From Pseudofrankia coriaricola (lineage in GTDB: Bacteria; Actinomycetota; Actinomycetes; Frankiales; Frankiaceae), in assembly GCF_001854805.1 (NCBI RefSeq), contig NZ_MBLO01000091.1, positions 279 to 55,964 of the forward strand: DNA of 55,686 nt, in the 5' to 3' direction. Each line of letters starts with the position of its first letter. Position 1 is the stretch's first letter. Positions 15,989 through 49,293 of this stretch are shown one piece after another. The notes below the pieces were generated by a model that saw only the letters and a program-made list of their open reading frames with translations, was not told where the DNA came from and ran no database searches. A program made the position numbers and the translations under genes.

Positions 15989-18900
15989 GTGTCGCTGGTT
16001 CCGGATCGGCGGGGAATCGCCCCGCGGAGGTGGGGGGCGGGCGACCGGCGGCGGGTGTTCCTCAGCCACACGTCCGAGCTCCGGGCCTACCCGCGCGACC
16101 TGTCGTTCGTCGCCGCGGCGGAGCGTGCCGTGGCGCGGGCGGGCGACCTCGCCGTCGACATGGCGTACTTCGGTGCCCGCGACGACCCGCCGGCCGACTT
16201 CTGCGCCCAGCAGGTCCGCGCGAGCGACGTCTACGTCGGCCTGATCGGCTTCCGCTACGGCTCGCCGGTGCGCGAGCGGCCGGACCTGTCCTACACCGAG
16301 GTCGAGTTCGAGGCGGCCACTGAGGCCGGCATCCCACGGCTGGTGTTCCTGCTCGCTGAGGATGCGCTCGTCCCGTTCCAGGAGTTCTCGGACATCGTCC
16401 ACGGCGGCCGCCAGCGCCGCTTCCGTGAGCGGCTGAACGACGCCGGCCTCATCACCACGAGCTTCCGGGCGCCGGCCGACCTCGAGACGGCCGTCCTCGA
16501 TGCCCTGGTCAAGCTGCGTGAGCGCGAGCGCCGCGAGCTGGAGGAGGCATCCGCCGGCCCTGCGAACGGCCACACCCTGATGCCTGGCCCCGCCGTGGTC
16601 ATCGTCGGGGTCGGCACGGTCAGCCCGGACGCGGCGCCGGTGGGCACCGGGCCGCGCCGGCCGTGGATGGTGCCGTCGCCGCACGGCAAGGTCGTCGCCC
16701 GTCCGGAGCTCACCGAGGCCGTTCTCACCCGGCTGCTGGCCCACGCCACCGGCGTCACCCGCGCCGCCACGCCGCCCGCTGGCGCGGCGGCACCGGACGT
16801 CGACGTGGACGCGGACCTAGACGCGGACACCGTTGACGAGATCACCTTGCCCGCCCTGCCGCCTTCGCTGGTCCACCGGCAGATCGCCCAGACGGCCGGG
16901 ACCTCGGCGTCGCGACTGCCGGCTGTGCCGTCGGCGGTCGGCGACGGTGGGACGGGCGCCTTTCCGGTCGTCCCCGGCGGCGCGGCGCCGGGGGAGCGGT
17001 CCCAGGGCGCGGTCCCGCCACGGACGGTGGTGCTGCGCGGAGTGGGCGGCTTCGGCAAGACCACGCTCGCCGCGGAGGTGTGCCGGCGCCCGGAGATCGC
17101 CGGCGCGTTCCCCGGCGGGGTGCTGTGGGTGACCGTCGGCGAGTCGGTGACCGGCGCGAACCTCGCGGACAAGATCAACGACCTGAGCGAGGCCCTGTCG
17201 GGCGCCCGGCCGGCGCTCGCGGACCCCGAACAGGCCGGGTTCCGCCTCGGCGAGCTGCTTGGCACGCCTCGGCGGCTGCTCGTCGTCGACGACGTATGGA
17301 CGCGGGCACAGCTCGCGCCGTTCCTGCAGGGCGGCCCGGGCTGCGTTCGGCTGGTCACAACCCGGATGCGGGATCTGCGTTCGGACCTCGCCGCCGCCGA
17401 CACGGTCGAGGTGCTGGCGATGTCCGACGCGGAGGCCGCCCGCCTCCTCACCCTCGACCTCAGCCCGGGGCAGGGGGAGGCGCCCATCTGGGGGACTGGC
17501 ACCGGCGGCGGCGCCACCCGCGGGACCGATGCCACCGGCCGGACCGATGCCAGCGGCGCGACCGAGACCGCCGAAGCCGGGGTTCCTGCCGGATCCGGGG
17601 TCCCTGCCCGATTCGGGGTTCCTGCCGGATTGGCGGAGCCTGCGGAGCCAATCTGGGAGGTCCGGAAGCCGATCGGGGAGGTCGGGAAGCCGATCCGGGA
17701 GGTTGGGCTCGCGCTGGGCCAGGTGCTGCCGGCCGACCGGGCGCGGCGGCTGCTGGACGCGACCGGGCGTTGGCCGGTGCTGCTGCGGCTGGTCAACCGG
17801 GCACTCGTCCGGCTGGTGCGCGACGGCGTGCCGCCACCGCGTGCCGCCGACCGGGTGCTCGCCCGGCTGGCCCGCCGCGGCCCGACGGCGTTCGACGTCA
17901 CCCGGCTCGAGGACCGCAACCAGGCCGTCGGCGCCACCCTGTCGGCGAGTGTCGGCCTGCTCACCGGCGACGAGCTGGACCGGTACCTGGAACTCGCCGT
18001 CTTCCCCGAGGACGTCGAGATCCCCCGCTATGTGCTCGACGCCTACTGGGGCGCCACCGGGGAGCTCACCCTCGACGAGGTCGACGACCTGTGCCAGGAG
18101 CTCCTCGACCTGTCGCTGGTGCTCGCCTACCGCCGGTACCCGCCGGCGTTGCTGATGCAGGATGTGCTGCGCTCCTACCTGCGTGTCCGCGTCGGCCCGC
18201 GGCGGCTGCGTGAGCTGCACGGGGTGCTGTGCGACGCGCTGCGGGCCCGACTGCTCGTGCCGGGCCGGCCACCCGCGGCCGGCCTTCCGGGCGCCGAGGA
18301 CACCGGGGGCTACGGCTACGACCTCGGGGACACCGACAACTACGGCGGCGACGTCGCTGGTGGCACCGAGCGCCCCGGCGTGGGCTTCGCGGACCCTGGC
18401 GCCGATCCGGCGGGAAGCCCTGCGCCCGTGGCCTGGTGGGAGCTGCCGAGCCGAGCCGGCTACGTGTGGACGAACCTGGTCGCGCACCTCGGCGGCGCCG
18501 GCCGGGCCGACGAGGCGCTCGCGCTGGTGCGCGACCTGCGCTGGACCGTCGCCAAACTCGCCCGGCCCAGCCTCGGCCTGGTCGCCGTCGACGCGGACCT
18601 GGCGCTCGCCACCGAGCTGGACCCGGCGGATCCGGCGCCCAGGGCGTTGCGTCGTGTGCTGCGCCAGACCGCCCACCTGTTCGGCCCCACCGACCCGCCG
18701 GACGCCCTGAGCGCGGTGCTGGCGAGCCGGCTCGACGGCATCCCGGCGCTGGCCGGCGCCCGCGCCCAGTTCGCCGCCACCGTGCGCGGGCCGCGGCTGG
18801 TCAACCGCTGGAGCCTGCCCGACCAGCCGCACCCCGGGCTCGTCCGGGTGCTCCAGGCCCATCGCCCGTCGGTCAACGCCTGCGCGGTGGCCCCGTCGGG

Positions 18901-20830
18901 CGACTGGCTGGCCTGCGCCGGCGACGACGGCACCGTTCAGATCTGGGACGCGGACGCATCCGCCGCCCGCGCGGTGCTGACCGGCCACACGGGCGCCGTG
19001 CACACCTGCGTGATCGCGCTGGACGGCGGCTTCCTCGTGTCGGGCGGCGCGGACCGGGTGGTCCGGGTCTGGGACGCCCGCGGCGGCCCGGCCCGGTTCG
19101 AGCTGCGCGGCCATTCCGGGGAGGTGCGCGGCGCCGCGGTCGCGCCGTCCGGCGCCTGGTTCGCGACCTGTGGCGACGACGGCATCGTCCGCTGCTGGCG
19201 CGCCCGCAGCGGCCTGCCCGGCCCGATGATCGTGGTGACACCAGGCCGCCGGCTCCGCGACTGCGCGATCTCGCCCGACGGCTCGCTGCTCGCGGCGGCG
19301 TGCGAGGACGGGGTGATCCGGCTGTTCGACACCCGCCAGGGCGGCGCCCCGGTCGGTGAGCTGCGCGGGCACCGCGGTCCGGTGCGCCGGCTCGCTGGCT
19401 GCCACGGGCCGGCCTGGCTGGTCTCCGCCGGGGAGGACGGCACGGTCCGGCGGTGGGACCCGGCGGCCCGCATGGCCGTCGCGCGCTACGACGTGGGCGC
19501 CGCGGCGCGCGGCTGCGCGGTCACCGCGGACGGCGCGGCGGTGGCCGCGACCGCGGCCGACGGCGTCGTGCGGCTGTGGGACACGGCGACCGGCACGCGT
19601 CGCCAGCTGGTCGGTCCGAGCGGGACGGCGGCGGTCTGCGCGATCGCCCCGGACGGGAGCTGGCTGGTCTCCGCCGGTCGGCACGGGGCGCTGCGGATCT
19701 GGGATGTGGGGCTCGCCGACCCGGGCGTCGCGGCGAGCGGCCGGGATGAGGGGATGCGCGCCTGCGTCGCGAGCTCGGACGGGCGCTGGGTCGTCTCCGT
19801 CTCCGAGGACGCCACTGCCGTCCAGTGGGACGTCGCCACGGCCGAGCAGGGGGCCGCGCTGGTGGGGGAGCGGCTCAACCCCGTCCGTGGCGGCGCGGTT
19901 GCCCCCGACGACAGCTGGGTGGCGCTGCCCGGCCGGGACGGCGGTGTGCGGCTGTGGGAGCCCGCAACCGGCACGGTCCGGGCCGTCCTTAGCTCACCGA
20001 GCGAGGTCCGCGGCTTCGCCGCGTCGCCCGACGGTTCCTGGCTGGTGGGCGCATGCGCGGACGGCGCCGTGCGGATGTGGGACACCCAGAGCGGCGAGTG
20101 GCTCGCCTCGTTCGCCGGCCGCAAGGCCGGCGGCGGCAGCGCCGGCGGCCGCGGCGCCAGCGGGCCAGGCGGCGCCGGCAGCCGCCGGCCGGGTGAGCCG
20201 TCGCGCCTGTACGGCAGCCAGCCGTCGACCAGCCAGCCGTCCACCACGGGCCGACGGGCCCGGAACCCGAACGACACCGACCTGTACCCGACCGGTCCAT
20301 ACCCCGAAGATCCCTACGACATCGAGGCTTACTACACCGAACCGGCGACCGGTGGCGGTGGCGCCGGGCACACCTGCGTCGTCGCCCCGGACGGCGCCTG
20401 GGTGGCCGCGGGCGGCGCTGACCAGGAGATCCGGGTCTGGGACGTCGCCACGCTGGAGCCGCTGGACCTGCTCACCGGGCACACCGGCGAGGTGCTGGGC
20501 CTCACCGTCGCGCCGGACGGCCGTTTCCTGGCCTCCGCGGGCGCCGACCACACGCTGAGGGTCTGGTGGACCGACGGCTGGCGGGCGGGCCCGGTGCTGA
20601 CGGGGCACACCCACACGGTCCGGGGCGCGGCGGTCAGCCCCGACGGGGCGTTCCTCGCCAGCGCCGGCGGCGACGGCTCGGTGCGGATCTGGGAGACGGC
20701 GCGCTGGCGGTGCGTCACGCTGATGCGGTTCGACGGCGCGGCCAGGGACTGCGCCTGGCTGCCCGACTCGCGCGGCCTCGCCGTAGCCGCCTCCGGCGGC
20801 CTCTACCTCTACGAACTACGCCTCGACTGA
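15989..20830 (+). CDS. STAND NTPase: DUF4062 + NB-ARC + 14 WD40 repeats
   Basis: 1613 residues. Residues ~20-150 form a DUF4062-type domain (RRVFLSHTSELRAYP, SDVYVGLIGFRYGSP, TEVEFEAATEAGIPRLVFLL). The NB-ARC ATPase follows, with Walker A GVGGFGKTT (351-359), Walker B RLLVVDDVW (~430) and a sensor-like VRLVTTRMRDL. About 14 WD40 repeats start near 955 (for example GDWLACAGDDGTVQIWDAD and FLASAGGDGSVRIWE), consistent with two seven-bladed propellers. A ~75-residue Gly/Ser/Tyr-rich linker separates blades 10 and 11. Such STAND proteins act as ligand-triggered oligomerising switches, often in signalling, cell death or phage defence. DUF4062 is a possible effector, but its activity here is unknown. 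Residues ~534-565 are encoded by a copy of palindromic element B inserted in the helical part of NB-ARC. Start GTG 15989 follows GAAGGCGG at a longer-than-usual spacing. No partner gene is evident: both neighbours are ordinary. Confidence 0.9.
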   Translation: MSLVPDRRGIAPRRWGAGDRRRVFLSHTSELRAYPRDLSFVAAAERAVARAGDLAVDMAYFGARDDPPADFCAQQVRASDVYVGLIGFRYGSPVRERPDLSYTEVEFEAATEAGIPRLVFLLAEDALVPFQEFSDIVHGGRQRRFRERLNDAGLITTSFRAPADLETAVLDALVKLRERERRELEEASAGPANGHTLMPGPAVVIVGVGTVSPDAAPVGTGPRRPWMVPSPHGKVVARPELTEAVLTRLLAHATGVTRAATPPAGAAAPDVDVDADLDADTVDEITLPALPPSLVHRQIAQTAGTSASRLPAVPSAVGDGGTGAFPVVPGGAAPGERSQGAVPPRTVVLRGVGGFGKTTLAAEVCRRPEIAGAFPGGVLWVTVGESVTGANLADKINDLSEALSGARPALADPEQAGFRLGELLGTPRRLLVVDDVWTRAQLAPFLQGGPGCVRLVTTRMRDLRSDLAAADTVEVLAMSDAEAARLLTLDLSPGQGEAPIWGTGTGGGATRGTDATGRTDASGATETAEAGVPAGSGVPARFGVPAGLAEPAEPIWEVRKPIGEVGKPIREVGLALGQVLPADRARRLLDATGRWPVLLRLVNRALVRLVRDGVPPPRAADRVLARLARRGPTAFDVTRLEDRNQAVGATLSASVGLLTGDELDRYLELAVFPEDVEIPRYVLDAYWGATGELTLDEVDDLCQELLDLSLVLAYRRYPPALLMQDVLRSYLRVRVGPRRLRELHGVLCDALRARLLVPGRPPAAGLPGAEDTGGYGYDLGDTDNYGGDVAGGTERPGVGFADPGADPAGSPAPVAWWELPSRAGYVWTNLVAHLGGAGRADEALALVRDLRWTVAKLARPSLGLVAVDADLALATELDPADPAPRALRRVLRQTAHLFGPTDPPDALSAVLASRLDGIPALAGARAQFAATVRGPRLVNRWSLPDQPHPGLVRVLQAHRPSVNACAVAPSGDWLACAGDDGTVQIWDADASAARAVLTGHTGAVHTCVIALDGGFLVSGGADRVVRVWDARGGPARFELRGHSGEVRGAAVAPSGAWFATCGDDGIVRCWRARSGLPGPMIVVTPGRRLRDCAISPDGSLLAAACEDGVIRLFDTRQGGAPVGELRGHRGPVRRLAGCHGPAWLVSAGEDGTVRRWDPAARMAVARYDVGAAARGCAVTADGAAVAATAADGVVRLWDTATGTRRQLVGPSGTAAVCAIAPDGSWLVSAGRHGALRIWDVGLADPGVAASGRDEGMRACVASSDGRWVVSVSEDATAVQWDVATAEQGAALVGERLNPVRGGAVAPDDSWVALPGRDGGVRLWEPATGTVRAVLSSPSEVRGFAASPDGSWLVGACADGAVRMWDTQSGEWLASFAGRKAGGGSAGGRGASGPGGAGSRRPGEPSRLYGSQPSTSQPSTTGRRARNPNDTDLYPTGPYPEDPYDIEAYYTEPATGGGGAGHTCVVAPDGAWVAAGGADQEIRVWDVATLEPLDLLTGHTGEVLGLTVAPDGRFLASAGADHTLRVWWTDGWRAGPVLTGHTHTVRGAAVSPDGAFLASAGGDGSVRIWETARWRCVTLMRFDGAARDCAWLPDSRGLAVAASGGLYLYELRLD
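17588..17683 (+). repeat. Palindromic element family B, copy 1 (in-frame inside the STAND gene)
   Basis: 96 bp identical at 95 positions to 27759-27854. Core inverted repeat: GATTGGC (17628-17634), a 12-base loop, GCCAATC (17647-17653), with GTTCCTGCCG on the left and TGGGAGGTC on the right. It is translated as GVPAGLAEPAEPIWEV and flanking Gly/Val/Pro repeats. Confidence 0.9.
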
Positions 20831-20847
20831 GCCACCTCGCGTCGGCG

Positions 20848-21141
20848 TCAGCCGATGTTGGGTGGGGTGAGGGCCGCGGCGGCCGAGGCCACCACCACGA
20901 GCATGAGCGCGAGCGCCGAGACGGCGTCGAGCCTGGCTCGCCCGGCCGGCGGGCGGGCCCGCGCGGAACGGCCGGTGACGACGACCCCCAGCGCGACGAC
21001 GCCCACCAGCGCCGCCAACCGGCCGGAGACGCCGTCCGCCGGCACCCAGCCGAGCCCCGCCCACAGACCCATGAGCACAGCCAGGGCGCGTCCCATGCGA
21101 ACGCCGCGGCCACGGACATTGTGGCCCGTCCGACACGTCAC
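20848..21141 (-). CDS. Small membrane protein, unknown function
   Basis: Up to 97 residues; homology-like composition starts at MGRALAVLMG (ATG 21096). It has two hydrophobic helices (LAALVGVVALGVVVTG and VSALALMLVVVASAAAAL) separated by an Arg-rich loop. No recognised domain. It lies downstream of the MBL hydrolase gene in the same direction with a 142-base gap. The stop codon is 17 bases from the end of the convergent STAND gene. The start is uncertain (GTG 21141 or ATG 21096), without a clear ribosome site. Confidence 0.45.
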   Translation of the reverse strand: MTCRTGHNVRGRGVRMGRALAVLMGLWAGLGWVPADGVSGRLAALVGVVALGVVVTGRSARARPPAGRARLDAVSALALMLVVVASAAAALTPPNIG

Positions 21142-21283
21142 GGCAGGGAAGTACCCACGGTGCCAGATCCGGACGCCGGTGCCCCGGCGGGGCGGGCGGA
21201 AGGGCCCGCCCGGGCTGTCCTGTTCGCGGAGCCTTTGCCGCTGCCCGGCCGGGGGACGGGTGCCCGGCCGGGCAGCGCCGGCC

Positions 21284-22174
21284 TCAGCCCGGCGAGGGAA
21301 GCGTGACGGTGGCGCGCTTTCCGGGGGCGGCCTCGAGGACCGCGCCGTCCGGAAGCAGGTCGACGCCGATCGCGGCCAGGCGCTCGGCGAGCCGCGGACC
21401 CGGCGGGTTGCGGTGGCTCAGGTGGACGGCGACGACGGTCGAGGTGCCCGTCAGGGCGCCATGCGCGCGGAGCCGATCGACGTCGGCGGCGAACGTCGCC
21501 AGGTCCAGGTGGTCGCCGAAGCCGGGCTGGTCGCCGTTGTTCTCCTCGACCAGTGCCACGTCGAACTCCCGGCCGGCCAGCGCCTCGATGGTCGCCGCGG
21601 GCAGCGGACCGGTGTCGCAGGCGTAGAGCAGCCGGGCACCGTCCGGGGCGGTGATGTCGTAGAGCACCGCGGGCCCGATCGAGGCGTCCCCGTGCGCCGC
21701 CGCGACCGGAACCACCAGGTAGCCGTCCCCGTCCGGCCCCGGACCGCCCAGCCGGATGGCATTGCCGGCAAGGGCCTGCCTGGGGCGCAGCGGCGAGCCG
21801 GCCTCGCCGGGTGCCCGTCGCTCCCAGCGGGTCAGGAAGGCCGCGACGACGTCGAGCACCGCCGGCGGGCCGACAACGTCGAGCGGGCGGTCGGCCGCGG
21901 TGCTCCACGACCGCCACATCAGCACCTCCGGCCCGATGTGGTCCGGATGGGCGTGCCCGACCACGAGGTGGCGCAGGCCGCCCAGGTCGACGCCGAACCG
22001 GGCCGCCGCGCGCGGCACGTCCGGCCCGAGATCGACGAGCATGGCGTCGTCGAGCAGCACGCCCGTCTGCGTGCGGGCATTACCGGTGTCGCGTGCCCAG
22101 GTGCACGACGAACACGCACACCACGGATTCGGCCAGCCGTCGGCCGAGCCCGTGCCCAGCAGGGTGACGCGCAC
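21284..22174 (-). CDS. MBL-fold metallo-hydrolase, PhnP-like
   Basis: 296 residues of a beta-lactamase-fold hydrolase. The N-terminal LLGTGSADGWPNPWCACSSC holds a C-x-C-x2-C structural zinc motif as in PhnP-type phosphodiesterases. The metal site HAHPDH is at 74-79 and later ligands are provided by LLYACDTGP and VAVHLSHRNP. Likely substrates are cyclic phosphodiesters or related compounds, but the specific one is unknown. Similar genes accompany cobalamin loci in actinomycetes, which fits the cob-like pair nearby, although the STAND gene separates them here. Start GTG 22174 has a clear AGGAG site. Confidence 0.85.
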   Translation of the reverse strand: MRVTLLGTGSADGWPNPWCACSSCTWARDTGNARTQTGVLLDDAMLVDLGPDVPRAAARFGVDLGGLRHLVVGHAHPDHIGPEVLMWRSWSTAADRPLDVVGPPAVLDVVAAFLTRWERRAPGEAGSPLRPRQALAGNAIRLGGPGPDGDGYLVVPVAAAHGDASIGPAVLYDITAPDGARLLYACDTGPLPAATIEALAGREFDVALVEENNGDQPGFGDHLDLATFAADVDRLRAHGALTGTSTVVAVHLSHRNPPGPRLAERLAAIGVDLLPDGAVLEAAPGKRATVTLPSPG

Positions 22175-22335
22175 TTCTCCTGCCCCGCTCTCTGCCGCGG
22201 ACGGCCGGTGTCAGACCAGGCCGCCCGCCGCGCCGGGGCCTGGCCGAGGCGTCCCCAGCCACCTGCTGGCGCGGTTCGTGGGTGCCGCCGCGGCGGGCGT
22301 GACGCCCACGTGGCCGCGGGCCCTCCGGCGGATGC

Positions 22336-23051: not shown

Positions 23052-23116
23052 GCCGCGAGCACGAGCGGCCTGGCGCGCACGCGGCGCCACCGCGGTCGGT
23101 GAAGATCCAGATCGTC

Positions 23117-23188: not shown

Positions 23189-23207
23189 TACCTTCTTGGG
23201 AGTCGTC

Positions 23208-24433: not shown

Positions 24434-24438
24434 CCTGG

Positions 24439-27748: not shown

Positions 27749-27758
27749 GGAGGGCCCT

Positions 27759-27854
27759 GCCGGATCCGGGGTTCCTGCCCGATTCGGGGTTCCTGCCGGA
27801 TTGGCGGAGCCTGCGGAGCCAATCTGGGAGGTCCGGAAGCCGATCGGGGAGGTC
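27759..27854 (+). repeat. Palindromic element family B, copy 2 (intergenic)
   Basis: Differs from 17588-17683 at one base in 96. Core palindrome GATTGGC (27799-27805) and GCCAATC (27818-27824). Further GATCGGGGAGGTC/TGGGAGCCGATCTGGGAGG units extend to about 27915. It lies in the ~990-bp nadA-erpA interval; the remaining ~430 bp up to erpA hold nothing else that I can name. Confidence 0.9.
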
Positions 27855-28344
27855 TGGGAGCCGATCTGGGAGGTCAGCGATCGGGGAGGTCTGGGAGGCG
27901 ATCCCGGAAGTTCGTGATGGGCCGGGCCGCCCACACCGGGGCGCCCGTTCGGTGGAGTAGGGGCGTTCGACCTGAGTGAGAGATGGGTCACTGGGGGAAC
28001 GCGAACGGGCCGTCTGGCTGGGAATGCCTGCCCCGCCGGCACTGGCGCCGCGTGCCCGCGGCCCAGGGAGCGCGCTGGGGAAAGGGCCGGCGTCATGGCC
28101 GGCCCACCGGCCGGTAGCTACGATGGGAAGCGGAACCGGGCCGAGGTTGTTAGCGCTGACGACATGACACCAGTGACACGGTGTGCGTCGAGACGGCGTG
28201 CGTCACCTCGGCTGAACCACGCGGCGGCAGCGGTGCCGTCGTGGCACCGACTGGGCCGCGTGGAGGGCGCCGGCGCGGCTCGGGTCGCGCGGATCCCCGC
28301 GGCGCACCCTGTAGGCACCTTCCGAAAGGGCAGGAGCAGCCCCT

Positions 28345-30414: not shown

Positions 30415-31659
30415 TTACAGGCCCACCGCGCCGGCTCGCTCGCGGATCGCGGCGACGGCGCCCGGCAGGACATCCAGCAGGGCCGTGAGGTCGGCGGCGG
30501 TGGAGTCGCGGCCGAGTGAGACCCGCACGTTGCCATGCGACAGGGCGCCCATCGCCACGAGCACGTGGCTCGGCGTCAGTGAGTCCGACGTGCAGCTCGA
30601 CCCGCTGCTGACCGCGATCCCCGCCCGGTCCAGCTCGCCGAGCAGCGCCTCGCCCGCGACGTACAGGCAGGAGAAAGCGACCAGGTTCGGCAGCCGGCCG
30701 GCTGGGTCCGGATCGCCGAGCAGCTCGACGTCGTCGACCAGCGCCGGCAGCCGGGCGCGCAGCTGGGCGGTGAGCGCTCCCAGCCGTTCGCGTTCGGCGG
30801 CGAGCTCGCCGGCCCTCGCGTGCAGCGCCGCCGCGGCCGCCACGATCGCCGGCAGGTTCGGGAAACCGGCGGCCCGGCCCGCCTCGCGCTCGTCGGCCGG
30901 CATCGGGTTCGTCCAGCGGGTGCCGGCCCGCACCACCAGGATCCCGACACCCGCCGGCCCGCCGAACTTGTGCGCGCTCGCCGTCAGCAGGTCGGCGCCC
31001 AGCGCGGTGACGTCCACCGGGATGCGCCCGACGGTCATCGCGGCGTCCGTGTGCAAGGGCACCCTGTCCACCGAACTTCTGTCTACCGAACTTCTGTCCA
31101 CCGAACTTCTGTCCGCAGACCCTCCTGCGCCCGCCGGGCCGCTGGCGTCCCTGGAACCGGCGGCCGTGTGCAACGCCTCGGCCACCTCCGCCACCGGCTG
31201 GATGGTGCCGACCTCGTGGTTGGCGTGCTGCACCGAGACGAGCGCGGTGCCAGGCGGGGGCACGCAGCTCGCCGGGTCCACCCGGCCGTGACGGTCCACA
31301 TCCAGGGTGCGAGTGCGCCCGCCGGCCCGTTCGTGGCGCTCGGCCGCGTGCAGCACGCTCGAGTGCTCGACCGCGCTGACCAGCACCAGGTCGCCGGCGC
31401 GTCTGCGCGCCGCCGCCGTGCCCAGCACGGCCAGGTGGGCGGCCGTCGCGCCGCTGGAACAGAAGGAGACCTCGTCGGCCCGCGCTCCGAGGACCCCGGC
31501 GACGGTCTCGCGCGCCGCGTCCAGCAGCATGCGGGCGCGGCGGCCCTCCCGGTAGAGCCGGGCCGGGTCGGCCCAGCCGTCGTCGAGGGCCGCCAGCAGC
31601 GCCGCGCGGCCGGCCGGGTGCAGCGGGGTCGTCGACGCGTGGTCAAGATAGGCCGGCAC
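30415..31659 (-). CDS. Cysteine desulfurase (class V aminotransferase, IscS/NifS-like)
   Basis: PLP enzyme producing enzyme-bound persulfide from cysteine. 414 residues. Cofactor and active-site motifs: YLDHASTTPLHPAG, FCSSGATAAHLAVLG, AVEHSSVLHA, QHANHEVGTIQP, the PLP lysine in SAHKFGGPAG (Lys231) and the persulfide cysteine in SSGSSCTSDS (Cys356). A ~30-residue Gly/Ser/Asp insertion (168-199), including a triple SSVDR repeat, sits in the loop before PLHTDA, where most homologs have a short turn. Divergent from ctaC, and followed by tusA. It probably supplies sulfur to TusA and Fe-S assembly. Confidence 0.93.
   Translation of the reverse strand: MPAYLDHASTTPLHPAGRAALLAALDDGWADPARLYREGRRARMLLDAARETVAGVLGARADEVSFCSSGATAAHLAVLGTAAARRRAGDLVLVSAVEHSSVLHAAERHERAGGRTRTLDVDRHGRVDPASCVPPPGTALVSVQHANHEVGTIQPVAEVAEALHTAAGSRDASGPAGAGGSADRSSVDRSSVDRSSVDRVPLHTDAAMTVGRIPVDVTALGADLLTASAHKFGGPAGVGILVVRAGTRWTNPMPADEREAGRAAGFPNLPAIVAAAAALHARAGELAAERERLGALTAQLRARLPALVDDVELLGDPDPAGRLPNLVAFSCLYVAGEALLGELDRAGIAVSSGSSCTSDSLTPSHVLVAMGALSHGNVRVSLGRDSTAADLTALLDVLPGAVAAIRERAGAVGL
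31066..31110 (-). repeat. Triple 15-bp in-frame tandem repeat in the cysteine desulfurase gene
   Basis: Three units of GTCCACCGAACTTCT (the middle one with one change) at 31066-31080, 31081-31095 and 31096-31110, encoding repeated SSVDR. Unit length is a multiple of three, so copy-number change keeps the frame. Confidence 0.95.
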
Positions 31660-32021: not shown

Positions 32022-33122
32022 GTGAGGAGTTCCTTCGGTCGGATCCGGCCGGCGCGCGCGGACGCGGGTGAGGCGGGCGCTGCGCGCCCGCCCGCGCGGC
32101 TCGGGGCTGAGGCCGAGTCCTATGACGATGGCATGGCCTCGTCCGGGGTCGGAGGAGGTGGCTGGCAGACCTCCCAGATCGGCGTCGCCGATCCGGCAGG
32201 GACCCCGGGCGCCGCGCCGATGCTCCGGGAGGCCGCCGACGGCGCGGGCGAGTCAGCCCTCGAGGGTGGCGGTCGCGACGCCGGTATAGCCCGTAGCAGT
32301 CATCGCCGCGGGCGCGTCGGCCGCGTGACGCGGCTCGGCGCTGGCCTCGCCGTGCTCGCGCTGACCGCGACCGCCTGCGGCGTGCCGAACTTCGGGTTCC
32401 CGGACGGGGTGACCAACCAGACCCCCCGCATTCTGAACCTGTGGAAGGGCTCGGCCATCGCCGCGCTCGCCGTCGGTGTGCTGGTCTGGGGGCTGATCTT
32501 CTACGCGATCATCGCGTTCCGGAAGCGGTCGGACGTCCTGCCTCGCCAGGTCCGGTACAACCTCCCCGTCGAGGTGCTGTACACGATCGTGCCGCTGGTG
32601 GTCGTCGCCGGGCTGTTCTACTACACCGCCCGGGACGAGACCAAGATTGACAAGGTCTCGGCCAACCCGGACGTCACGGTGAACGTGGTGGGCTTCCGCT
32701 GGAACTGGCAGTTCCGTTACACGGACACCGGCCAGAACGGCGGTAACGTCGTCGAGGTGACCGGCCAGCCCGGCCAGCCGGCCGTGCTGGTGCTGCCCGA
32801 GGGCCGCTCCGTGAAGTTCGTGCTGACCTCGCCGGACGTCATCCACTCGTTCTGGGTGCCGGAGTTCCTGTTCAAGCGGGACGTCGTGCCGGGCCGGATC
32901 AACACGTTCGAGGTCACGCCGACCGAAACCGGCACGTTCATCGGCCGCTGCGCCGAGCTGTGTGGCGCGGACCACGACAAGATGAACTTCTACGTCAACG
33001 TCGTCCCCGCCGACCAGTACGACAAGTTCATCGCGGAGCAGGAGGCGGCGAGCGCCACGGCCGTCGGCGCTCCCGCGCTCACCACTGCCGGCAGCGGCAC
33101 GACCTCCGGGAGCGGACAGTGA
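32022..33122 (+). CDS. ctaC: Cytochrome c oxidase subunit II (aa3 type), lipoprotein
   Basis: CuA-containing subunit that accepts electrons from the cytochrome c domain of QcrC. 366 residues from GTG 32022, which has GGGAGG eight bases upstream. A lipobox LTATAC (Cys119) follows a basic segment and hydrophobic core, then two membrane helices ([20 protein letters not shown] and [19 protein letters not shown]). CuA ligands are seen in [13 protein letters not shown] and [12 protein letters not shown]. The ~95 residues before the signal peptide are unusual; part of them ([14 protein letters not shown]) is encoded by an inverted copy of element B. If translation really starts downstream (for example ATG 32133), the element would lie close to the N-terminus or in the leader. 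The stop overlaps ctaD (GTGA). Confidence 0.92.
32166..32206 (-). repeat. Palindromic element family B, copy 3 (within ctaC)
   Basis: On the minus strand: GGTCCCTGCCG, GATCGGC, three-base loop, GCCGATC, TGGGAGGTCTG. It has the same flanks and stem as the long copies, with the 12-base loop reduced to three. Palindrome at 32177-32193. Confidence 0.8.
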
Positions 33123-42650: not shown

Positions 42651-43792
42651 GCGAGCAGGACGACACCTCCACCGGAGGTGGGAGCGTCTTCGACCGGGTG
42701 AAGCGCCCGGCCGGGGGCGGGCCGGCCGGCGGGAGCGGTGGCGCCGGGGCCCCGGAGGGCCCCGAGGTGCTGGGCACCCCGCCGGCTCCGACCGACTCCA
42801 CCCAGCTGGAGGAGCACACCTCCTGGCGGCACGCGGGCGTCGCGCACCGGCCGCCGCGGGCCGAGGACGTCGACCGGCGCGCCGAGCGGCGTGCCGAGCG
42901 GCTGATCGCGCTCTGGTTCACCGTCTCGGTGATCGGCACGCTCGGCTTCATCGTCGCGAACTTCGCGGGCGACAAGCACAAGGCGTACTACACCCCGTGC
43001 CTGGGCCTCGGGATCGCGCTCGCCGTCGGCGGCCTCGGCGTCGGGATGATCCTGTGGGCCAAGCGGCTGATGCCGCACGAGCAGGCCGTGCAGGAGCGGC
43101 ACTCCTTCAAGAGCACCGACGTGGAGACGGCGGTCCTCGAGGAGGAGGTGGCGCTCGGCTTCGACGCCATGGGCCTGGGCCGGTTCAAGCTGGTACGCCG
43201 CAGCCTGCTTGGTGCTGGCGCCGTGCTCGGCGGCCTCGCGGTGGTGCCGCTGCTGAACCTCACGAACGCCAAGCCGGGCAAGAAGCTCGACCACACCCAC
43301 TGGGTGAAGGGCGCCCGGATGGTCACCGGCGAGGGACGGTTCGTCAAGCTCGGCGACATCTCCATCGGCGGCATCGAGACCGTCTTCCCGGCGGTGCCCG
43401 TCAAGGACGCGGGCGGCACCACCAGGTTCGAGCCCCAGCTGGACCTGCACACCAAGGCCGACAGCGCCACGATCCTGGTCCGCCTCGAGCCGGGCATCAA
43501 CAAGCCCCGGCCCGGGCGGGAGAACTGGGACCTGGCGGGCCTGGTCGCCTACTCGAAGATCTGCTCGCACGCCGGCTGCCCGGTCAGCCTCTACGAGCAG
43601 CAGACCCATCACCTGCTCTGCCCGTGCCACCAGTCGGTGTTCGACGTGCCGGACGGCTGCCGCGCCATCTTCGGCCCGGCCAGCCGGTCGCTGCCGCAGC
43701 TCGCGCTCGGCGTCGACGGCGATGGCTACCTCATCGCCCGGGACGGCGACTACACCGAGCCGATCGGGCCCGCGTTCTGGGAGCGCTCATGA
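42647..43792 (+). CDS. qcrA: Rieske iron-sulfur subunit QcrA
   Basis: 381 residues. [2Fe-2S] ligands: CSHAGCPVSLYEQ and CPCHQSVFD. The N-terminal ~60 residues are Gly/Pro-rich, followed by three helices (LIALWFTVSVIGTLGFIVAN, LGLGIALAVGGLGVGMILWA and SLLGAGAVLGGLAVVPLLNL) as in actinobacterial QcrA, instead of the single anchor of mitochondrial Rieske proteins. Start ATG 42647 ([12 protein letters not shown]) overlaps the qcrC stop; the stop overlaps the qcrB start, both as ATGA. Confidence 0.96.
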   Translation: MSEQDDTSTGGGSVFDRVKRPAGGGPAGGSGGAGAPEGPEVLGTPPAPTDSTQLEEHTSWRHAGVAHRPPRAEDVDRRAERRAERLIALWFTVSVIGTLGFIVANFAGDKHKAYYTPCLGLGIALAVGGLGVGMILWAKRLMPHEQAVQERHSFKSTDVETAVLEEEVALGFDAMGLGRFKLVRRSLLGAGAVLGGLAVVPLLNLTNAKPGKKLDHTHWVKGARMVTGEGRFVKLGDISIGGIETVFPAVPVKDAGGTTRFEPQLDLHTKADSATILVRLEPGINKPRPGRENWDLAGLVAYSKICSHAGCPVSLYEQQTHHLLCPCHQSVFDVPDGCRAIFGPASRSLPQLALGVDGDGYLIARDGDYTEPIGPAFWERS

Positions 43793-45417
43793 CGACGACG
43801 CACGGGCCGGCCGGTTCGCCCGCGGCCGCCCCGAAGCTCGAGAAGCGGCCGAGCCCGGTTCGCAAGCTCAACCGGGCGGCGGACGAGCGGTTCCACACCC
43901 AGCGGGCGCTGCGGGAGAACCTGAACAAGGTCTTCCCCGACCACTGGTCGTTCATGATCGGTGAGATCGCGCTCTACAGCTTTATCATCCTGATATTGAC
44001 CGGGATCTACCTGACGCTGTTCTTCGACCCGAGCAACACCGAGGTCATCTACAACGGCTCGTACGTCCCGCTCAAGGGCGTGGAGATGAGCCGGGCGTAC
44101 GCGTCGACGCTGGACATCAGCTTCGACATCCGGGCCGGGCTGGTGTTCCGCCAGATCCACCACTGGGCGGCGCTGCTGTTCGTCGCGTCGATCATGGTCC
44201 ACCTGTTCCGGGTGTTCTTCACCGGCGCGTACCGCAAGCCGCGCGAGATCAACTGGCTGATCGGTGTCGGCCTGCTGGTCATGGGCATCTTCGAGGGCTT
44301 CGCCGGCTACTCGCTGCCGGACGACCTGCTCTCCGGCACCGGCCTGCGGATCGCCTCGTCGATCGCCCAGTCGATCCCGGTGGCCGGCACCTGGGCATCG
44401 TTCCTGCTGTTCGACGGCGAATGGCCCGGCATGAACTTCCTGCCTCGGCTCTACGTCGCGCACATCCTGCTGATCCCCGGCCTCCTGCTCGCGCTCGTCG
44501 GCGCGCACCTGGGCATCCTCTGGTACCAGAAACACACCGACTTCCCCGGCCCGGGCAAGACCGAGGACAACGTCATCGGCCACCGGGTGTTCCCGGTGTT
44601 CGCGGTGAAGTCCGGCGGGTTCTTCATGATGGTCTTCGCGATGCTGGCGCTGCTGGGTGGCCTCGCGCAGATCAACCCGATCTGGGTGTTCGGCCCGTAC
44701 GACCCGTCGAAGGTCAGCTCGGCGTCTCAGCCGGACTTCTACATCGGCTTCCTGGACGGCTCGACCCGTCTCATGCCGCCCTGGGAGTTCCGCGGGCTCG
44801 GGCACACGGTGGCCGCGGTGTTCTGGCCGACGGTGATCCTTCCCGGCATCCTGTTCACGCTGCTGGCGCTGTGGCCGTGGCTCGAGGCGAAGTTCACCGG
44901 GGACCGCGAGTCGCACAACTTGCTGCAACGGCCGCGGGAGGCGCCGACCCGTACCGCGATCGGCGCCATGTCGATCAGCTTCTACCTGGTGCTGCTGATC
45001 TCGGGTGGTAACGACGTCATCGCGAAGACGTTCAGCATCTCGCTGAACGCGATGACCTGGGCCGGCCGAGTCGGGCTGATCATCGTCCCACCGATCGCGT
45101 ACAAAGCCACCAAGGTGATCTGTATCGCGCTCAACAAGCGGGACCACGACATCGCCCACCACGGCATCGAGACCGGCATCATCCGGCAGCTGCCGACCGG
45201 CGAGTTCGTCGAGGACCACCGGCCCAAGCCGGACCCGGTGCCCGACTACCCGCTGGTGCCGACGCACCGCTTCGAGCTGCCGGCTCCGGGCCACGGCAAC
45301 GGCGATGGGCACGCGAAGGGCGGCATCACCACCCGCGCCCGCAAGGCCGTCACCGGCTTCTTCACCGAGGAGAAGACCGAAAGCGGCGAGGAACCGGTAG
45401 GCGGCCCCCGCCACTGA
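43789..45417 (+). CDS. qcrB: Cytochrome b subunit QcrB
   Basis: 542 residues; menaquinol-oxidising core with haems bL and bH. Recognised by FRQIHHWAALLFVASIMVHL, GFAGYSLPDDLLSGTGLRIA, HILLIPGLLLALVGAHLGIL and PDFYIGFLDGSTRLMPPWEF, the latter corresponding to the quinol site where mitochondrial proteins have PEWY. The C-terminal hydrophilic tail of ~90 residues (RQLPTGEFVEDHRP to GGPRH) is typical of actinobacteria. Start ATG 43789 overlaps qcrA by four bases. Last gene of the ctaE-qcrCAB operon; a hairpin at 45604 closes it. Confidence 0.97.
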   Translation: MTTTHGPAGSPAAAPKLEKRPSPVRKLNRAADERFHTQRALRENLNKVFPDHWSFMIGEIALYSFIILILTGIYLTLFFDPSNTEVIYNGSYVPLKGVEMSRAYASTLDISFDIRAGLVFRQIHHWAALLFVASIMVHLFRVFFTGAYRKPREINWLIGVGLLVMGIFEGFAGYSLPDDLLSGTGLRIASSIAQSIPVAGTWASFLLFDGEWPGMNFLPRLYVAHILLIPGLLLALVGAHLGILWYQKHTDFPGPGKTEDNVIGHRVFPVFAVKSGGFFMMVFAMLALLGGLAQINPIWVFGPYDPSKVSSASQPDFYIGFLDGSTRLMPPWEFRGLGHTVAAVFWPTVILPGILFTLLALWPWLEAKFTGDRESHNLLQRPREAPTRTAIGAMSISFYLVLLISGGNDVIAKTFSISLNAMTWAGRVGLIIVPPIAYKATKVICIALNKRDHDIAHHGIETGIIRQLPTGEFVEDHRPKPDPVPDYPLVPTHRFELPAPGHGNGDGHAKGGITTRARKAVTGFFTEEKTESGEEPVGGPRH

Positions 45418-45420
45418 GTC

Positions 45421-45566
45421 GGGCGCCGCCTGGTCGGGCGCGGAGCGCCCTCCCGGCCTTGGTTCCGGGCACAGCCGTATGGCGGCGGCTCGGCCTGTCT
45501 GGGGTCGGGGACGTGATTGGGTTGGCGCCAGCGCTGATGCGCGGTCGCTTGCTGTGGCTGGATTGA
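45421..45566 (+). repeat. Dispersed repeat family A, copy 4
   Basis: Landmarks in order: GGTCGGGCGCGGAGCGCCCT, TTGGTTCCGGGC, GTATGGCGGCGG, GGGGTCGGGGACGTGATTGG, GTTGGCGCCAGCGCTGATGC and TTGCTGTGGCTGG. It starts within four bases of the qcrB stop. Confidence 0.8.
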
Positions 45567-45603
45567 GTGATTTGCCCGCTGGAGCGGTGCGGCACGCATC
45601 GTC

Positions 45604-45648
45604 GCTGAGGGAGGCACGTCCTCGAGGGCGTGTCTCCCTCAGCTCTTT
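45604..45648. terminator. Bidirectional terminator, qcrB / exonuclease gene
   Basis: GCTGAGGGAGGCACG pairs with CGTGTCTCCCTCAGC (one mismatch) around a ten-base loop, followed by TCTTT on the plus strand. It overlaps the stop codon of the convergent exonuclease gene. Confidence 0.85.
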
Positions 45649-47426
45649 CCCGGCGCAGGCGTGCGGGCGGAGCGGTGGGGTTCGCCTGGGCGGTGGGTGA
45701 GGTCCCGGTGGTCGGTCCGTGGCAGCGGGGGGAGCTCGGCCGCGGCCCTGGCGGCGCCGGCGGCGGGCCAGGCCCAGGTGCCAGTGAGCTGGACGAGCCG
45801 GGCGCCCGGGGTGGCGAGCCAGCGTTCGATCCGCTCCATCTCCTCGGCGCTCGCCGCCGGCGTCGGCCCGGGGCCCGGGCGGACGGTCTCGGCGGTGGCG
45901 ACGACCGCATCCACCCAGGGACGCGGGTCGACGCCCCGCGCGACGGTCGCGGACGCGGCGAGCCGGCCGTACCGGATGACGGCCAGGTCCCAGCCACGGT
46001 CGGCGGTGGGCACGGCGCCCACCAGTTCGGGGACGACACCCAACGCGGTCAGCCGCTGCTGACGGGCGGAGGCCCGGACAAACGCGACCATCCGATCCCT
46101 GGCCAGCGCTGCCTCCTCGAACCGGGTCTGCGCGGCCAGCACGGAGATCCGCGCCCGCGCGGCGGCGACGACGACCGTCGGGTCGCCCGCCATCGCCTCC
46201 CTGGCATCGGCCACGACCGCGGCGTACTCCTCCAGGGACTGCCGCCTGTCGCAGGGCGCGCCGCACTTGCCGAGGTCCGCGAGCGCGCAGGCCGGGTTCG
46301 ACTGCCGCGGTGAGAGCCGCCCTCCGCAGCGGCGCAGTGCCACCGCCTCCTGCAGGCCGTCAGCCGCCAGCTCGGCCCCGCCGACGCGGCCGAAGGGGCC
46401 GAGGTAGGTTCCGCCGTCGGCGCGCACCTGGCGCACTCTGGACAGCCGGGGAAACGGCTCGTCGGTGAGGCGCAGGAACACCGTGCGCTCCGGGAACCGG
46501 GAGCGGCGGTTGTAGGGCGGTTTGTGCTGGGCGATCAGACGCAGCTCGCGCACCTCCGCCTCGAGCGTGTGCGCGCACTCGATCGCGTCCACCCGCTCCG
46601 CGGCGGCGACCATCTCGGCCATCCGGGTGCGCGTCTCGCTCGCGGTGAAGTAGGTGCGTACGCGGGCGCGTATCGAGGCCGACTTGCCGACGTAGAGCAC
46701 CCGGCCGGAACCATCACGGAACAGGTACACCCCGGGGCCGGTGGGCAGGTCGTCGGCGAGCGTGCGCTTGCGCCGCTGGGCGGGGGAGACCCTGTTGCTG
46801 TACTCGTGGACGTCCTCCAGCGTCCTCACTCCGAGGTTGCCGAGCCGCTCGAACAGGCCGTGCAGGACGTCCACCGTGGCGCGGGCGTCGGCGAGCGCGC
46901 GGTGACGCGGCTCGTGGCGAGCGTGGAACAGCCGGGCGAGCGAGGACAGCTTGTTGTCGGGGCTCTCGTCGCGCGTGACGACCCGGCGGGCCAGCCTGAC
47001 GGTATCCAGGTGCTCCCAGGCGGGGACGGGGTAGCCGACGCGTTCGCAGGCCGCCTTGAGGAAGCTCAGGTCGAAGCCGGCGTTGTGCGCGACGAGCACC
47101 GAGCCGCGGATGAACTCCAGGAACGCGGGCAGCACCTCGGCCAGCGCGGGCGCCGTCGCGACCATCGAGTCAGTGATCCCGGTCAGCACGGTGATCAGCG
47201 GCGGCACAGCGTTCGACGTACGCACCAGTGTGGCGAACTCGGCGATCACCTCACCGCCGCGGACCTTCACCGCGCCGAACTCGGTGATCTCGGAGTCGGC
47301 CGGCCCGGTGCCGGTCGTCTCCAGATCGAACACGACGAAGGTGACGTCCCGCAGCGGCCGGCCCAGCTCGTCGAAGCTGCCCTGCCGCCCGCCGGCTGGG
47401 GCCGGCGCCGAAGGCTCAGGTGACAC
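45639..47426 (-). CDS. DEDDh 3'-5' exonuclease fused to UvrC-like GIY-YIG domain
   Basis: 595 residues. Residues ~28-190 are a DnaQ-like exonuclease with Exo I FVVFDLETTGTGP, Exo II VLVAHNAGFDLSFL and Exo III HRALADARATVDVL (DEDDh). Residues ~220-300 are a GIY-YIG domain (GPGVYLFRDGSGRVLYVGKS, IRARVRTYFT), followed by a UvrC-like region with KPPYNRRSRFPERTVFLRLT and a Cys-containing CALADLGKCGAPC segment, as in M. tuberculosis Rv2191 (from memory). Actinobacteria keep this protein beside trpD and the bcc genes. A role in DNA repair or processing is inferred from the domains. Start GTG 47426. The C-terminus is Arg/Pro-rich and ends inside the terminator hairpin. Confidence 0.93.
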   Translation of the reverse strand: MSPEPSAPAPAGGRQGSFDELGRPLRDVTFVVFDLETTGTGPADSEITEFGAVKVRGGEVIAEFATLVRTSNAVPPLITVLTGITDSMVATAPALAEVLPAFLEFIRGSVLVAHNAGFDLSFLKAACERVGYPVPAWEHLDTVRLARRVVTRDESPDNKLSSLARLFHARHEPRHRALADARATVDVLHGLFERLGNLGVRTLEDVHEYSNRVSPAQRRKRTLADDLPTGPGVYLFRDGSGRVLYVGKSASIRARVRTYFTASETRTRMAEMVAAAERVDAIECAHTLEAEVRELRLIAQHKPPYNRRSRFPERTVFLRLTDEPFPRLSRVRQVRADGGTYLGPFGRVGGAELAADGLQEAVALRRCGGRLSPRQSNPACALADLGKCGAPCDRRQSLEEYAAVVADAREAMAGDPTVVVAAARARISVLAAQTRFEEAALARDRMVAFVRASARQQRLTALGVVPELVGAVPTADRGWDLAVIRYGRLAASATVARGVDPRPWVDAVVATAETVRPGPGPTPAASAEEMERIERWLATPGARLVQLTGTWAWPAAGAARAAAELPPLPRTDHRDLTHRPGEPHRSARTPAPGKS

Positions 47427-47526
47427 ACCGCGAACCTAGTGACGAGGTCCGACACTCCACGAACCGGTGACCAGGTAGCGGGTGATGTGACATCCGGCCG
47501 CCGCCAGCCTGCCGCCTGGCTCCCCT

Positions 47527-47997
47527 GTGATCATGTTCGGTGGCCTGACGATGTCTGGCTGGCTGATCGGGCCCGTCGCGGTCCAACTGGCCGACGGCAC
47601 CCGCCTCGTGCCCATCGGGCCGATGCGTTCCCGGTTGCCCGAGTCCCTCGTGCTCGAGCCGACGACGACGCGCACCTGGCCGGCCCGGTGGAATCGAGCG
47701 GCCTTCTTCGCTCTCGTCGGCACCGCCGTGTGCGGCACGTTCGCAACGATGATTGCCATCGCCGGCAGGCTATTCCGTCGGAGCGATCGCGGCCGGCGCG
47801 CTGGCTCCGGGGTCGCTGGGGGCGCCTTTCTCGTCAACGCCTGGGCCGGTCACGGTGATGCGCCGCCCTGGCCATGGGAAGTCGGCCCGCGCCGCCCGGC
47901 TGGGCGCGGCTGCGGCTACGCGAAGGGGCGGGTGAAGGCGGCGGGGCCGGCGGTGATGACACGGAACTCGTTGCCCTCGGGATCGGCGAGAAGGTAG
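47527..47997 (+). CDS. Possible small membrane-associated protein (doubtful)
   Basis: An open frame of 156 residues beginning MIMFGGLTMSGWLIGPVAVQ, with one credible membrane helix (RAAFFALVGTAVCGTFATMI, then AIAGRLF) and a basic tail. The last ~27 codons overlap the VOC gene on the other strand, so the true protein, if any, may be shorter. There is no ribosome binding site. The competing frame on the minus strand (47436-47837) looks like a shadow. I include this because the helix is unusual for random GC-rich DNA; otherwise 47427-47915 is empty. Confidence 0.25.
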   Translation: MIMFGGLTMSGWLIGPVAVQLADGTRLVPIGPMRSRLPESLVLEPTTTRTWPARWNRAAFFALVGTAVCGTFATMIAIAGRLFRRSDRGRRAGSGVAGGAFLVNAWAGHGDAPPWPWEVGPRRPAGRGCGYAKGRVKAAGPAVMTRNSLPSGSARR

Positions 47998-48329
47998 CCG
48001 GCCTCGCCGACGGCCTCCAGGCGGCGGACTCGCCGGGCGCCCAGGGTGGCGAGCCAGCTGGCGACGCGCTCGGCGTCGACCGCGTAGAGGTCGAGCTGGA
48101 GACGGTTGCGCGCCGGCCCGAGCTTGCGGACCTGGCGCAGCAGCAGCTTCGGCCCCGCACTCGCCGGGTGGCGCAGTTCCGCGGTGTCACCGTCGCGGAG
48201 GGTTACCTCGTATCCCAGCGCTCTGGACCAGAAGCGGATCATTCGGTCGACATCCACGCAGTCGACCCCGACTCGCGCTACCCTCAGCCCGTGCGTCTCA
48301 AACCTGGCCACTCGCGCATGATGCCGCAT
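47916..48329 (-). CDS. VOC-superfamily (glyoxalase/bleomycin-resistance-like) protein
   Basis: 137 residues with the paired beta-alpha-beta-beta-beta pattern: VGVDCVDVDRMIRFWSRALGYEV, DTAELRHPASAGPKLLLRQV, then NRLQLDLYAVDAERVASWLA and GYLLADPEGNEFRVI. The final DPEGNEF motif is typical of this group and carries a metal-type Glu. Substrate unknown. Isolated gene between doubtful sequence and the divergent HIT gene. Confidence 0.88.
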   Translation of the reverse strand: MRHHARVARFETHGLRVARVGVDCVDVDRMIRFWSRALGYEVTLRDGDTAELRHPASAGPKLLLRQVRKLGPARNRLQLDLYAVDAERVASWLATLGARRVRRLEAVGEAGYLLADPEGNEFRVITAGPAAFTRPFA

Positions 48330-48460
48330 TGCGGGTGCCTTGGTTCATCGGTGGCCGGCGTGTTGTGAAACGGTCATCGATCCGAGCCGGCCGAAGGGCC
48401 CGGCGGCGGGCCGCGTCCCGCTAGATCCCTTGGGGCACCTGGATCGGTAGGGTCCTGGCC

Positions 48461-48856
48461 ATGCCGACTATCTTCACCCGGATCATCAACGGGGAGCTGC
48501 CGGGTCGGTTCGTCTACGAGGACGAGCACACGGTCGCCTTCCTGACCGTCGCCCCGATCCGGCCGGGCCACACGCTCGTCGTGCCGCGCCTCGAGGTCGA
48601 CCACTGGATCGACCTGCCGGACGCCGAGCAGCGCGAGCTGTGGAGCGCGGCGGCGAAGGTCGGCAGAGCGATCCAGGACGCGTTCCAGCCGCGCCGGGTC
48701 GCGGCGATCATCGCGGGGCTGGAGGTGCCGCACGTGCACGTGCACCTCATCCCGATCGACAGCGAGAAGCAGCTGGACTTCGGCCTCGCGGATTCCAGCC
48801 CGACGCCCGAGGCGCTGGACGAGGCCGCCGAACGGATCAGGGCCGCGCTCGCCTGA
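48461..48856 (+). CDS. HIT-family nucleotide hydrolase/transferase
   Basis: 131 residues. Histidine triad HVHVHLIP (His 91, 93, 95) with the preceding RRVAAIIAGLEVPH; N-terminal TIFTRIINGELPGRFVYEDE and PIRPGHTLVVPRLEV are standard for the Hint/protein kinase C inhibitor branch, which hydrolyses nucleoside phosphoramidates or adenylates. Start ATG 48461. Monocistronic and convergent with the Cys-motif gene. Confidence 0.94.
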   Translation: MPTIFTRIINGELPGRFVYEDEHTVAFLTVAPIRPGHTLVVPRLEVDHWIDLPDAEQRELWSAAAKVGRAIQDAFQPRRVAAIIAGLEVPHVHVHLIPIDSEKQLDFGLADSSPTPEALDEAAERIRAALA

Positions 48857-48909
48857 CCCGCGGCGCGAACTCCACGGGGCTGCCGGGAGCGTGGCGACGA
48901 GGAGGACGG

Positions 48910-49293
48910 TCAGCCGGCCCTGCGGGAGCGGCGGCGGGGGCCGGCGGCATCGGGGCGGCGCGCCAGGGGTCCCTGCCGGATCGGCGAAGCCGCATCCGGG
49001 AGGTTCGGGGAGCGCCGACGCGGGCCGACCGCGAACGGCTCGGGAAGTGGAATCATCTGCTGCGCCGTCGGGACCTCCGCCGCGGCGCCGCCGTCAGCCG
49101 GCACGACGTCCAACGGCGTCACCAGCCGGAGCCTCGGCAACAGGCCCGCGTCGGCGAGCAGCGCGAGCGCTCGGCGCTCGTCCTCATCCCACTCCACGAC
49201 CGGTGGTGGTGCCAGCAGCACCGACAGCACACAGTCCTCACACGCGTCCCCACGCGCCACGCACGAATCACAGTCGATCAGCATCGCGCTCAC
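48910..49293 (-). CDS. Small Cys-motif protein of actinobacterial type
   Basis: Up to 127 residues. The first ~75 look conserved: MLIDCDSCVARGDACEDCVLS with four Cys in a C-x2-C-x6-C-x2-C spacing, then EDERRALALLADAGLLPRLR. It suggests a small zinc-binding fold; I recall similar uncharacterised actinobacterial proteins. The C-terminal ~40 residues are Arg/Pro-rich and are encoded in part by palindromic element B4, so the tail is probably recent. It lies downstream of the NYN-domain gene in the same direction (74-base gap). Start ATG 49284 or 49293. Confidence 0.7.
   Translation of the reverse strand: MSAMLIDCDSCVARGDACEDCVLSVLLAPPPVVEWDEDERRALALLADAGLLPRLRLVTPLDVVPADGGAAAEVPTAQQMIPLPEPFAVGPRRRSPNLPDAASPIRQGPLARRPDAAGPRRRSRRAG
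48967..49010 (+). repeat. Palindromic element family B, copy 4
   Basis: GGGTCCCTGCCG, GATCGGC, three-base loop, GCCGCATC, CGGGAGGTTCGGGG: same flanks as the other copies, with one extra base in the right stem. It overlaps the 3' part of the Cys-motif gene in antisense orientation. Confidence 0.75.

Follow-up and report, generated by a model that had tools for sequence, protein, structure and literature searches.

Small dispersed repeats (SDR) are very small hairpin repeats of 21–27 nt that are not known outside cyanobacteria and thought to be mobile, and some SDR families nest in their own copies. The double-hairpin elements of fungal mitochondria are tiny mobile hairpins that enter genes and spacers. 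The SDR of Nostoc and its relatives were reportedly described by Elhai et al. in Genome Res. in 2008. Passages of PMC4390886 and PMC3116915 cite the SDR study of these authors, and the family SDR5 is described as inserting in HIP1. According to passages of PMC10969869, Rickettsia palindromic elements (RPE) are dispersed, palindromic, rickettsial sequences of ~150 bp, which lie in frame in unrelated genes and have a conserved peptide. REP sequences are palindromes of 20–40 bp with many copies, some of them within genes; the REP superfamilies are defined by GTAG and CGTC tags, and CGTC REPs are without a dedicated transposase (passages of PMC3733652). No actinobacterial REP host is named in these passages, and the paper contains neither the word Frankia nor the word Actinobacteria.

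The hairpin family of Pseudofrankia coriaricola described here belongs among the very small mobile palindromic repeats. Its behavior is closest to that of SDR, RPE and REP/REPIN, and it is without a defining feature of each. We consider it likely, with a probability of roughly 0.8, that the family is made up of mobile, non-autonomous DNA hairpins of very small size, which spread by self-copying to new sites. No report of the hairpin in Frankia was found in the open-licence literature, and the passages of PMC4447401 on Frankia genomes describe a generic palindrome and repeat screen without mention of it.

The unit is an imperfect hairpin of ~42 nt, C-GGGGTYCCTGCCGGATC-GGC-GAA-GCC-GATCTGGGAGGT-CNG, with a loop of 3 or 12 nt. 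Among the strict matches and the parsed arrays, the main loops are indeed of 3 or 12 nt, in keeping with the 3 to 12 bases reported for the first copies noticed. Folding of the consensus as single-stranded DNA gave −13.3 kcal/mol (z −4.5). The stem has been kept by compensatory changes, with stem pair 1 occurring as G-C (96), T-A (7), C-G (2), A-T (1) and G-T (1), stem pair 2 as G-C (102), A-T (4) and A-C (1), and the adjoining C-G pair as C-G (92), T-A (13), T-G (11) or unpaired (2). Scanning of nine loci against Rfam at the gathering score gave no match. At several sites, alignment to relatives showed a net gain of 39 nt per insertion, corresponding to the entry of ~42 nt and the loss of 3 target bases. 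This balance follows from the alignments of the QueA, NRPS and ctaC sites described below, together with the 3 bases found after the outermost GGGAGGT at 88 sites outside a larger repeat family (CCG 34, CTG 24, CGG 11, TCG 6, CGT 6, others 7). The hairpin kept by compensatory changes, together with the nesting in its own copies described below, resembles SDR. Unlike SDR, with their 21–27 nt and cyanobacterial hosts, the present hairpin adds 39 nt net, replaces 3 target bases, has in-frame copies in genes and is found in Frankiaceae. It also differs from SDR5 with its HIP1 target, as no fixed short target was seen.

The window, i.e. the whole 55,686-nt stretch of P. coriaricola DNA that was analyzed, was matched in all seven genus mates, which include Pseudofrankia asymbiotica NRRL B-16386 (G028), Frankia nepalensis CN7 (G030) and Frankia sp. 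AgB1.9 (G033). A preliminary description of the window had listed four copies of a palindromic element, and all four were found at the positions given there. The first is a three-level nest on the plus strand (17575–17706, by alignment breakpoints against G028), which lies in frame, as had been claimed, inside a plus-strand STAND-type gene with NB-ARC and WD40 repeats (ORF 15989–20830, Pfam). Its innermost hairpin, in the long-loop form, occupies 17621–17661 (+; strict match C91:17899–17939, at a window offset of 278). The nest adds 126 nt net relative to G028, and is absent in all six relatives aligned. The second copy is an intergenic plus-strand nest at 27756–27890, containing three L and four R half-units (the left and right arms defined below), with its innermost hairpin at 27792–27832, as identified by strict match and parsing; a longer stretch surrounding it is absent in G028 and G031.

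The third copy is a single, inverted hairpin on the minus strand (32166–32206, core 32169–32200), in frame in the N-terminal leader of a plus-strand gene at 32022–33122, which we take to be ctaC, encoding cytochrome oxidase subunit II. The GTG start at 32022 is common to relatives, and the protein was compared. A diverged copy is present in G028, while the other six relatives aligned lack the insert, with a clean 39-nt gap in G031. The fourth copy, a single hairpin with one extra base (48965–49004, +, from alignments to relatives), runs antisense to a small minus-strand ORF with Cys motifs (48913–49302, 130 codons stop to stop), close to the C-terminal end of that ORF. The codon score of this ORF is weak (0.05), yet the stretch still aligns with three relatives; all three lack the insert, which adds 39 nt net relative to G028. 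The segments assigned to the STAND, ctaC and Cys-motif genes are thus missing from the orthologous stretches, except for the diverged ctaC copy of G028. The two long copies (17588–17683 and 27759–27854) are identical at 95 of 96 bases, reproducing the earlier count. The 96-bp segments are real; as the basic unit of the element they were ruled out, because they are three-level nests, built from a unit that contributes 39 nt.

The core pattern CCTGCCNGATYNGC-N(1-20)-GCNRATCNGGGAGGT was searched for exact matches on both strands of the source genome, an 11.2-Mb draft of 280 contigs. This gave 98 strict matches (52 forward and 46 reverse), versus 0 for a reversed control pattern in the same genome, so that the search for further copies proposed for the four original ones was amply answered. 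Of the two outcomes that the preliminary description had named as refuting it, a lack of further copies and conservation of the same segments in distant orthologs, neither was borne out. All 98 sites were fetched as 87 stretches totaling 486,750 bases, from which the 98 strict cores were recovered; the initial DNA search had scored 40 of 269 candidates. Among 35 family genomes searched, the element is present in nine, including seven of the eight in the genus of the source (98, 37, 24, 16, 6, 4 and 1 copies) and two of the five in a second genus (4 and 1 copies), with 0 of the 22 other family genomes containing it. The remaining genus member, G034, gave no strict core match. Unlike RPE of Rickettsia, the element is thus found in Frankiaceae, the view beyond the family coming from a wider contig scan with at least 47 stretches, where all of the matches listed are in records named Frankia or Pseudofrankia. 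Double-hairpin elements are organellar, whereas the hairpin of Frankiaceae is bacterial. A 131-base array query gave no match in either plasmid or phage collections, and carriage by a phage or plasmid was set aside on this basis.

To parse the arrays, half-units L (CCTGCC[GC]GAT[CT]) and R ([AG]ATC[TCG]GGGAGGT) were called with at most one mismatch each and clustered at gaps of ≤45 bases; in the resulting counts, a near-palindromic copy can appear once per strand, as C217 does. The order L..LR..R was found in 117 of the 119 clusters holding both half-units. Forty-four clusters are a single LR, and the longest symmetric array is built of five half-units of each type. Of the 73 larger ordered arrays, 32 have as many L as R (shuffle mean 19.8, as high in 3 of 10,000 shuffles), and in 59 the two numbers differ by at most one. 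Similar shapes, with no R before an L, are seen in the arrays of other genomes, namely 30 of 32 arrays in the loci of F. nepalensis, 13 of 13 in those of P. asymbiotica, 7 of 7 in those of AgB1.9, CIT1 and californiensis, and 3 of 4 in the G031 loci read. The linker on the outer side of an L is predictive of the one outside the R at equal depth, with a mutual information of 1.32 bits over 97 level pairs, compared to a mean of 0.13 and a maximum of 0.32 in 5000 shuffles, and to 0.17 bits for off-depth pairs (n = 159). The L..LR..R order and the depth-matched linkers together indicate that most arrays are nests, with an inner hairpin placed within the loop region of an outer one. The insertion points implied by the main linker types lie after GGC-GA, GATC, GGC-GGA or GAAGCC of the outer hairpin. 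Of 97 nesting levels, 75 correspond to a gain of 39 nt and seven to a gain of 48 nt, the remaining 15 ranging from 34 to 93 nt.

Nesting is directly visible at two loci. The array at C25:8889 is common to G028, but contains one extra hairpin here (net 39 nt), inside an outer hairpin that is whole in G028. At C242:81774, G028 has one hairpin, and P. coriaricola has two more inside it, amounting to 78 nt as read from the alignment; the automated span against G028 is 60, owing to other bases inserted nearby in G028. The loop region of the element's own earlier copies serves as an insertion target, and Russian-doll nests are built in this way. This own-loop nesting with a fixed gain of 39 nt distinguishes the element from REP/REPIN.

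An immobile repeat could also produce symmetric arrays, if these grew in place by half-unit slippage and were kept for protein binding or for RNA or DNA folding. The L and R numbers are unequal in 41 of the 73 larger arrays, and in a few cases a single R unit seems to have been duplicated in situ, as slippage would predict. It would not, however, account for whole new hairpins within older ones, for the depth-matched linkers, for copies in enzyme genes in both orientations, or for single copies at unrelated sites that differ from relatives by exactly 39 nt. The empty sites speak against it as well, unless relatives have lost their copies, and we regard slippage as very improbable.

The reading as a mobile hairpin was examined further by mapping 28 additional sites and nine coding sites to relatives, for a comparison total of 41 sites; the 28 are the top-ranked of 97 candidates by flank coding signal, and hence a non-random sample. 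Twenty-five of the 41 sites are empty in G028 (4 with one unit-like match, 9 occupied, 3 unresolved) and 25 in G031 (9 with one unit-like match, 6 occupied, 1 unresolved), where a unit-like match allows 2 mismatches and 45 bases of flank, such that some of the one-unit calls are due to chance. The STAND and Cys sites in G028, for example, were called as one unit by matching, yet are empty in the alignments. Eighteen of the 41 sites are empty in both genomes. Single hairpins differ by exactly 39 nt at the sites in QueA (versus G028 and G031), the NRPS domain (G031), ctaC (G031) and the Cys ORF (G028), and a long-loop copy at C210:176850 differs by 48 from G028. Differences of 78 were found at the FadB/J site versus G031 and at C102:9643 versus G028, and differences of 156 versus G028 at the four-level nest C236:123618 and the L5R3 array C262:12484. 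Other differences cannot be composed of 39 and 48, e.g. 111 (C14), 133 (C254:42224), 138 (C257, and C252 in G028) and 165 (C234). Together with the nesting levels off these values, they suggest that insertion is not always clean, or that it has been blurred by later changes. The G031 orthologue of C210:176850 (L239) has a 39-nt hairpin copy of its own, a few dozen bases away, which is absent here and in G028.

The alignments of nested (C25, C242) and single-copy sites were inspected for the target-site duplication that had been proposed as a check, and none was seen; nor was a direct repeat visible flanking the inserted hairpin at several sites. The usual net insertion length, the element's own loop region as target, both orientations and the lack of a visible target-site duplication can all be read directly from these alignments. 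The lack of a duplication is a difference from MITEs. A very short MITE, mobilized by the transposase of a parent insertion sequence, would have the inverted-repeat structure and dispersed copies seen here, but the alignments show no visible target-site duplication (the transposase search covered PF01797 only), and we consider this origin unlikely.

To determine how the mobile hairpin relates to genes, flanks were assessed by a codon-score test, with one contig-edge row dropped. Coding signal on both sides was found in 16 of 118 rows, compared to 726 of 2000 control positions, which were taken from other stretches than the sites, namely the window itself and eleven regions of relatives. Genes are thus under-hit, and presumed selection against disruptive copies would account for this, with gene-disrupting copies presumably being purged. 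The preliminary description had presented the element as one that lodges inside protein-coding genes whose reading frames stay open. The in-frame lodging holds more widely, since the reading frame is kept in 16 of 16 coding rows with shifts of 1 and 2 allowed (14 distinct arrays, after dropping C213:8160, of order RL, and the second C217 row). Since 39 nt is 13 codons, an in-gene copy leaves the frame unshifted and can survive as a 13-residue insert.

The innermost hairpins in coding arrays are read in four frames, two sense (4 and 1 arrays) and two antisense (8 and 1, C217 counted once), with a fifth frame apparently represented by the Cys-ORF copy. A design for openness in six frames was considered and dropped. 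Although no frame of the consensus unit contains a stop, the same is true of 22% of its shuffles and of 40% of random 42-mers from the window. In a two-level composite, one of the frames is closed by a stop, and 36 of 48 single-L arrays and 27 of 71 other arrays are open in all six frames.

Nine of ten host ORFs gave Pfam hits, which comprise Queuosine_synth (QueA), AMP-binding and Condensation (NRPS), 3HCDH and ECH, Alpha-amylase, FAD_binding_3 (two ORFs), TP_methylase, FtsX, and NB-ARC with WD40. QueA reads DPA-GVPAGSAKPIWEV-GTGP here, and the 13-residue insert is absent in G028, G031 and G029. The insert in the NRPS adenylation domain is common to G028, and absent in G031 and G029. In-frame gene insertion (16 of 16 coding rows, 13-residue inserts) is a likeness to RPE. 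Unlike RPE, with their length of about 100–150 bp, the unit here adds 39 nt, uses several frames and under-hits genes. The likeness to RPE drawn in the preliminary description is therefore one of behavior, and does not extend to size and taxon.

Candidate partners for movement were sought with PF01797 (transposases) and PF00078 (reverse transcriptases). The hairpin could be a REP/REPIN-type element, moved via single-stranded DNA by a RAYT (Y1 tyrosine transposase), which would be in keeping with its small size, single-strand folding and lack of a visible target duplication. Like the CGTC REPs, it has no dedicated RAYT, and consists of small palindromes in many copies, some of them within genes. 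The source genome, however, contains no match to PF01797 (Y1/RAYT), which disfavors RAYT mobilization; the domain occurs in 17 of the 35 family genomes, including one of the nine with the element versus 16 of the 26 without it. In addition, unlike REP, BIME and REPIN, the consensus has neither a GTAG nor a CGTC tag on either strand (tags as defined in passages of PMC3733652). Mobilization by a RAYT is thus highly doubtful.

Alternatively, a hairpin RNA could be copied into exposed single strands by a reverse transcriptase acting in trans, e.g. that of group II introns. PF00078 was matched in 9 of 9 element-bearing genomes, and had no match in G034, the sole genus member without the element, but it is also present in 18 of the 26 genomes without the element, and reverse transcriptase is not supported as a specific partner on this account. 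Copy numbers within the genus do not track the matches (98 copies with 9 matches, 37 with 2, 6 with 8). We consider an RNA-mediated route, raised already in the preliminary description, possible, though rather unlikely. Among the 35 family genomes, Ca. Frankia californiensis (G023) has the most reverse-transcriptase matches (19).

The mobile hairpin is probably mobilized in trans by an enzyme other than a Y1/RAYT transposase, with a folded single strand as the probable intermediate. Tentatively, and with somewhat less than even confidence, we propose that the 13-codon hairpin represents a new class of mobile DNA, with a fixed net gain of 39 nt, a 3-base target replacement, a preference for its own loop, and mobilization by an enzyme or pathway that would so far not have been linked to any such element.

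A larger dispersed repeat (GTGACGGCGCATCAGCGC, CCGCCATATGCCAGGG, TGGTTCCGGG) often bears the hairpin at fixed inner places. It occurs in the window at 10291–10476, 45433–45562 and 54098–54129, and elsewhere in the genome at C1:72886–73028, C34:26662–26814, C225:12640 and C248:10937. G028 and G031 lack stretches of ~190–350 nt that contain a hairpin core at C1:72992, C225:12640 and C248:10937. Many hairpin copies lie inside this larger repeat, which may have brought them to their present sites. Other repeats in the window are a 157-bp tandem duplication at 53788–54101 (99% identical), a 15-bp tandem repeat at 31064–31114 (CTGTCCACCGAACTT, 3.4 copies), and tandem repeats of 15, 18 and 33 bp at 51332–51666, apparently coding for a stretch rich in Gly, Tyr, Gln and Pro, as judged by eye.

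The hairpin is a very small mobile element for which orthologues provide evidence of single insertions, including insertions into its own older copies. Because the nests reveal both where insertion occurs (in the hairpin loop region) and what it yields (a gain of 39 nt, with ~3 bases replaced), the movement of transposase-less palindromic repeats becomes testable. Enzyme genes, including QueA and an NRPS adenylation domain, are shown to receive 13-residue inserts. If the proposed new class is true, each nest would be a readable stack of successive insertions, and the hairpin family would be a natural generator of 13-residue protein inserts.
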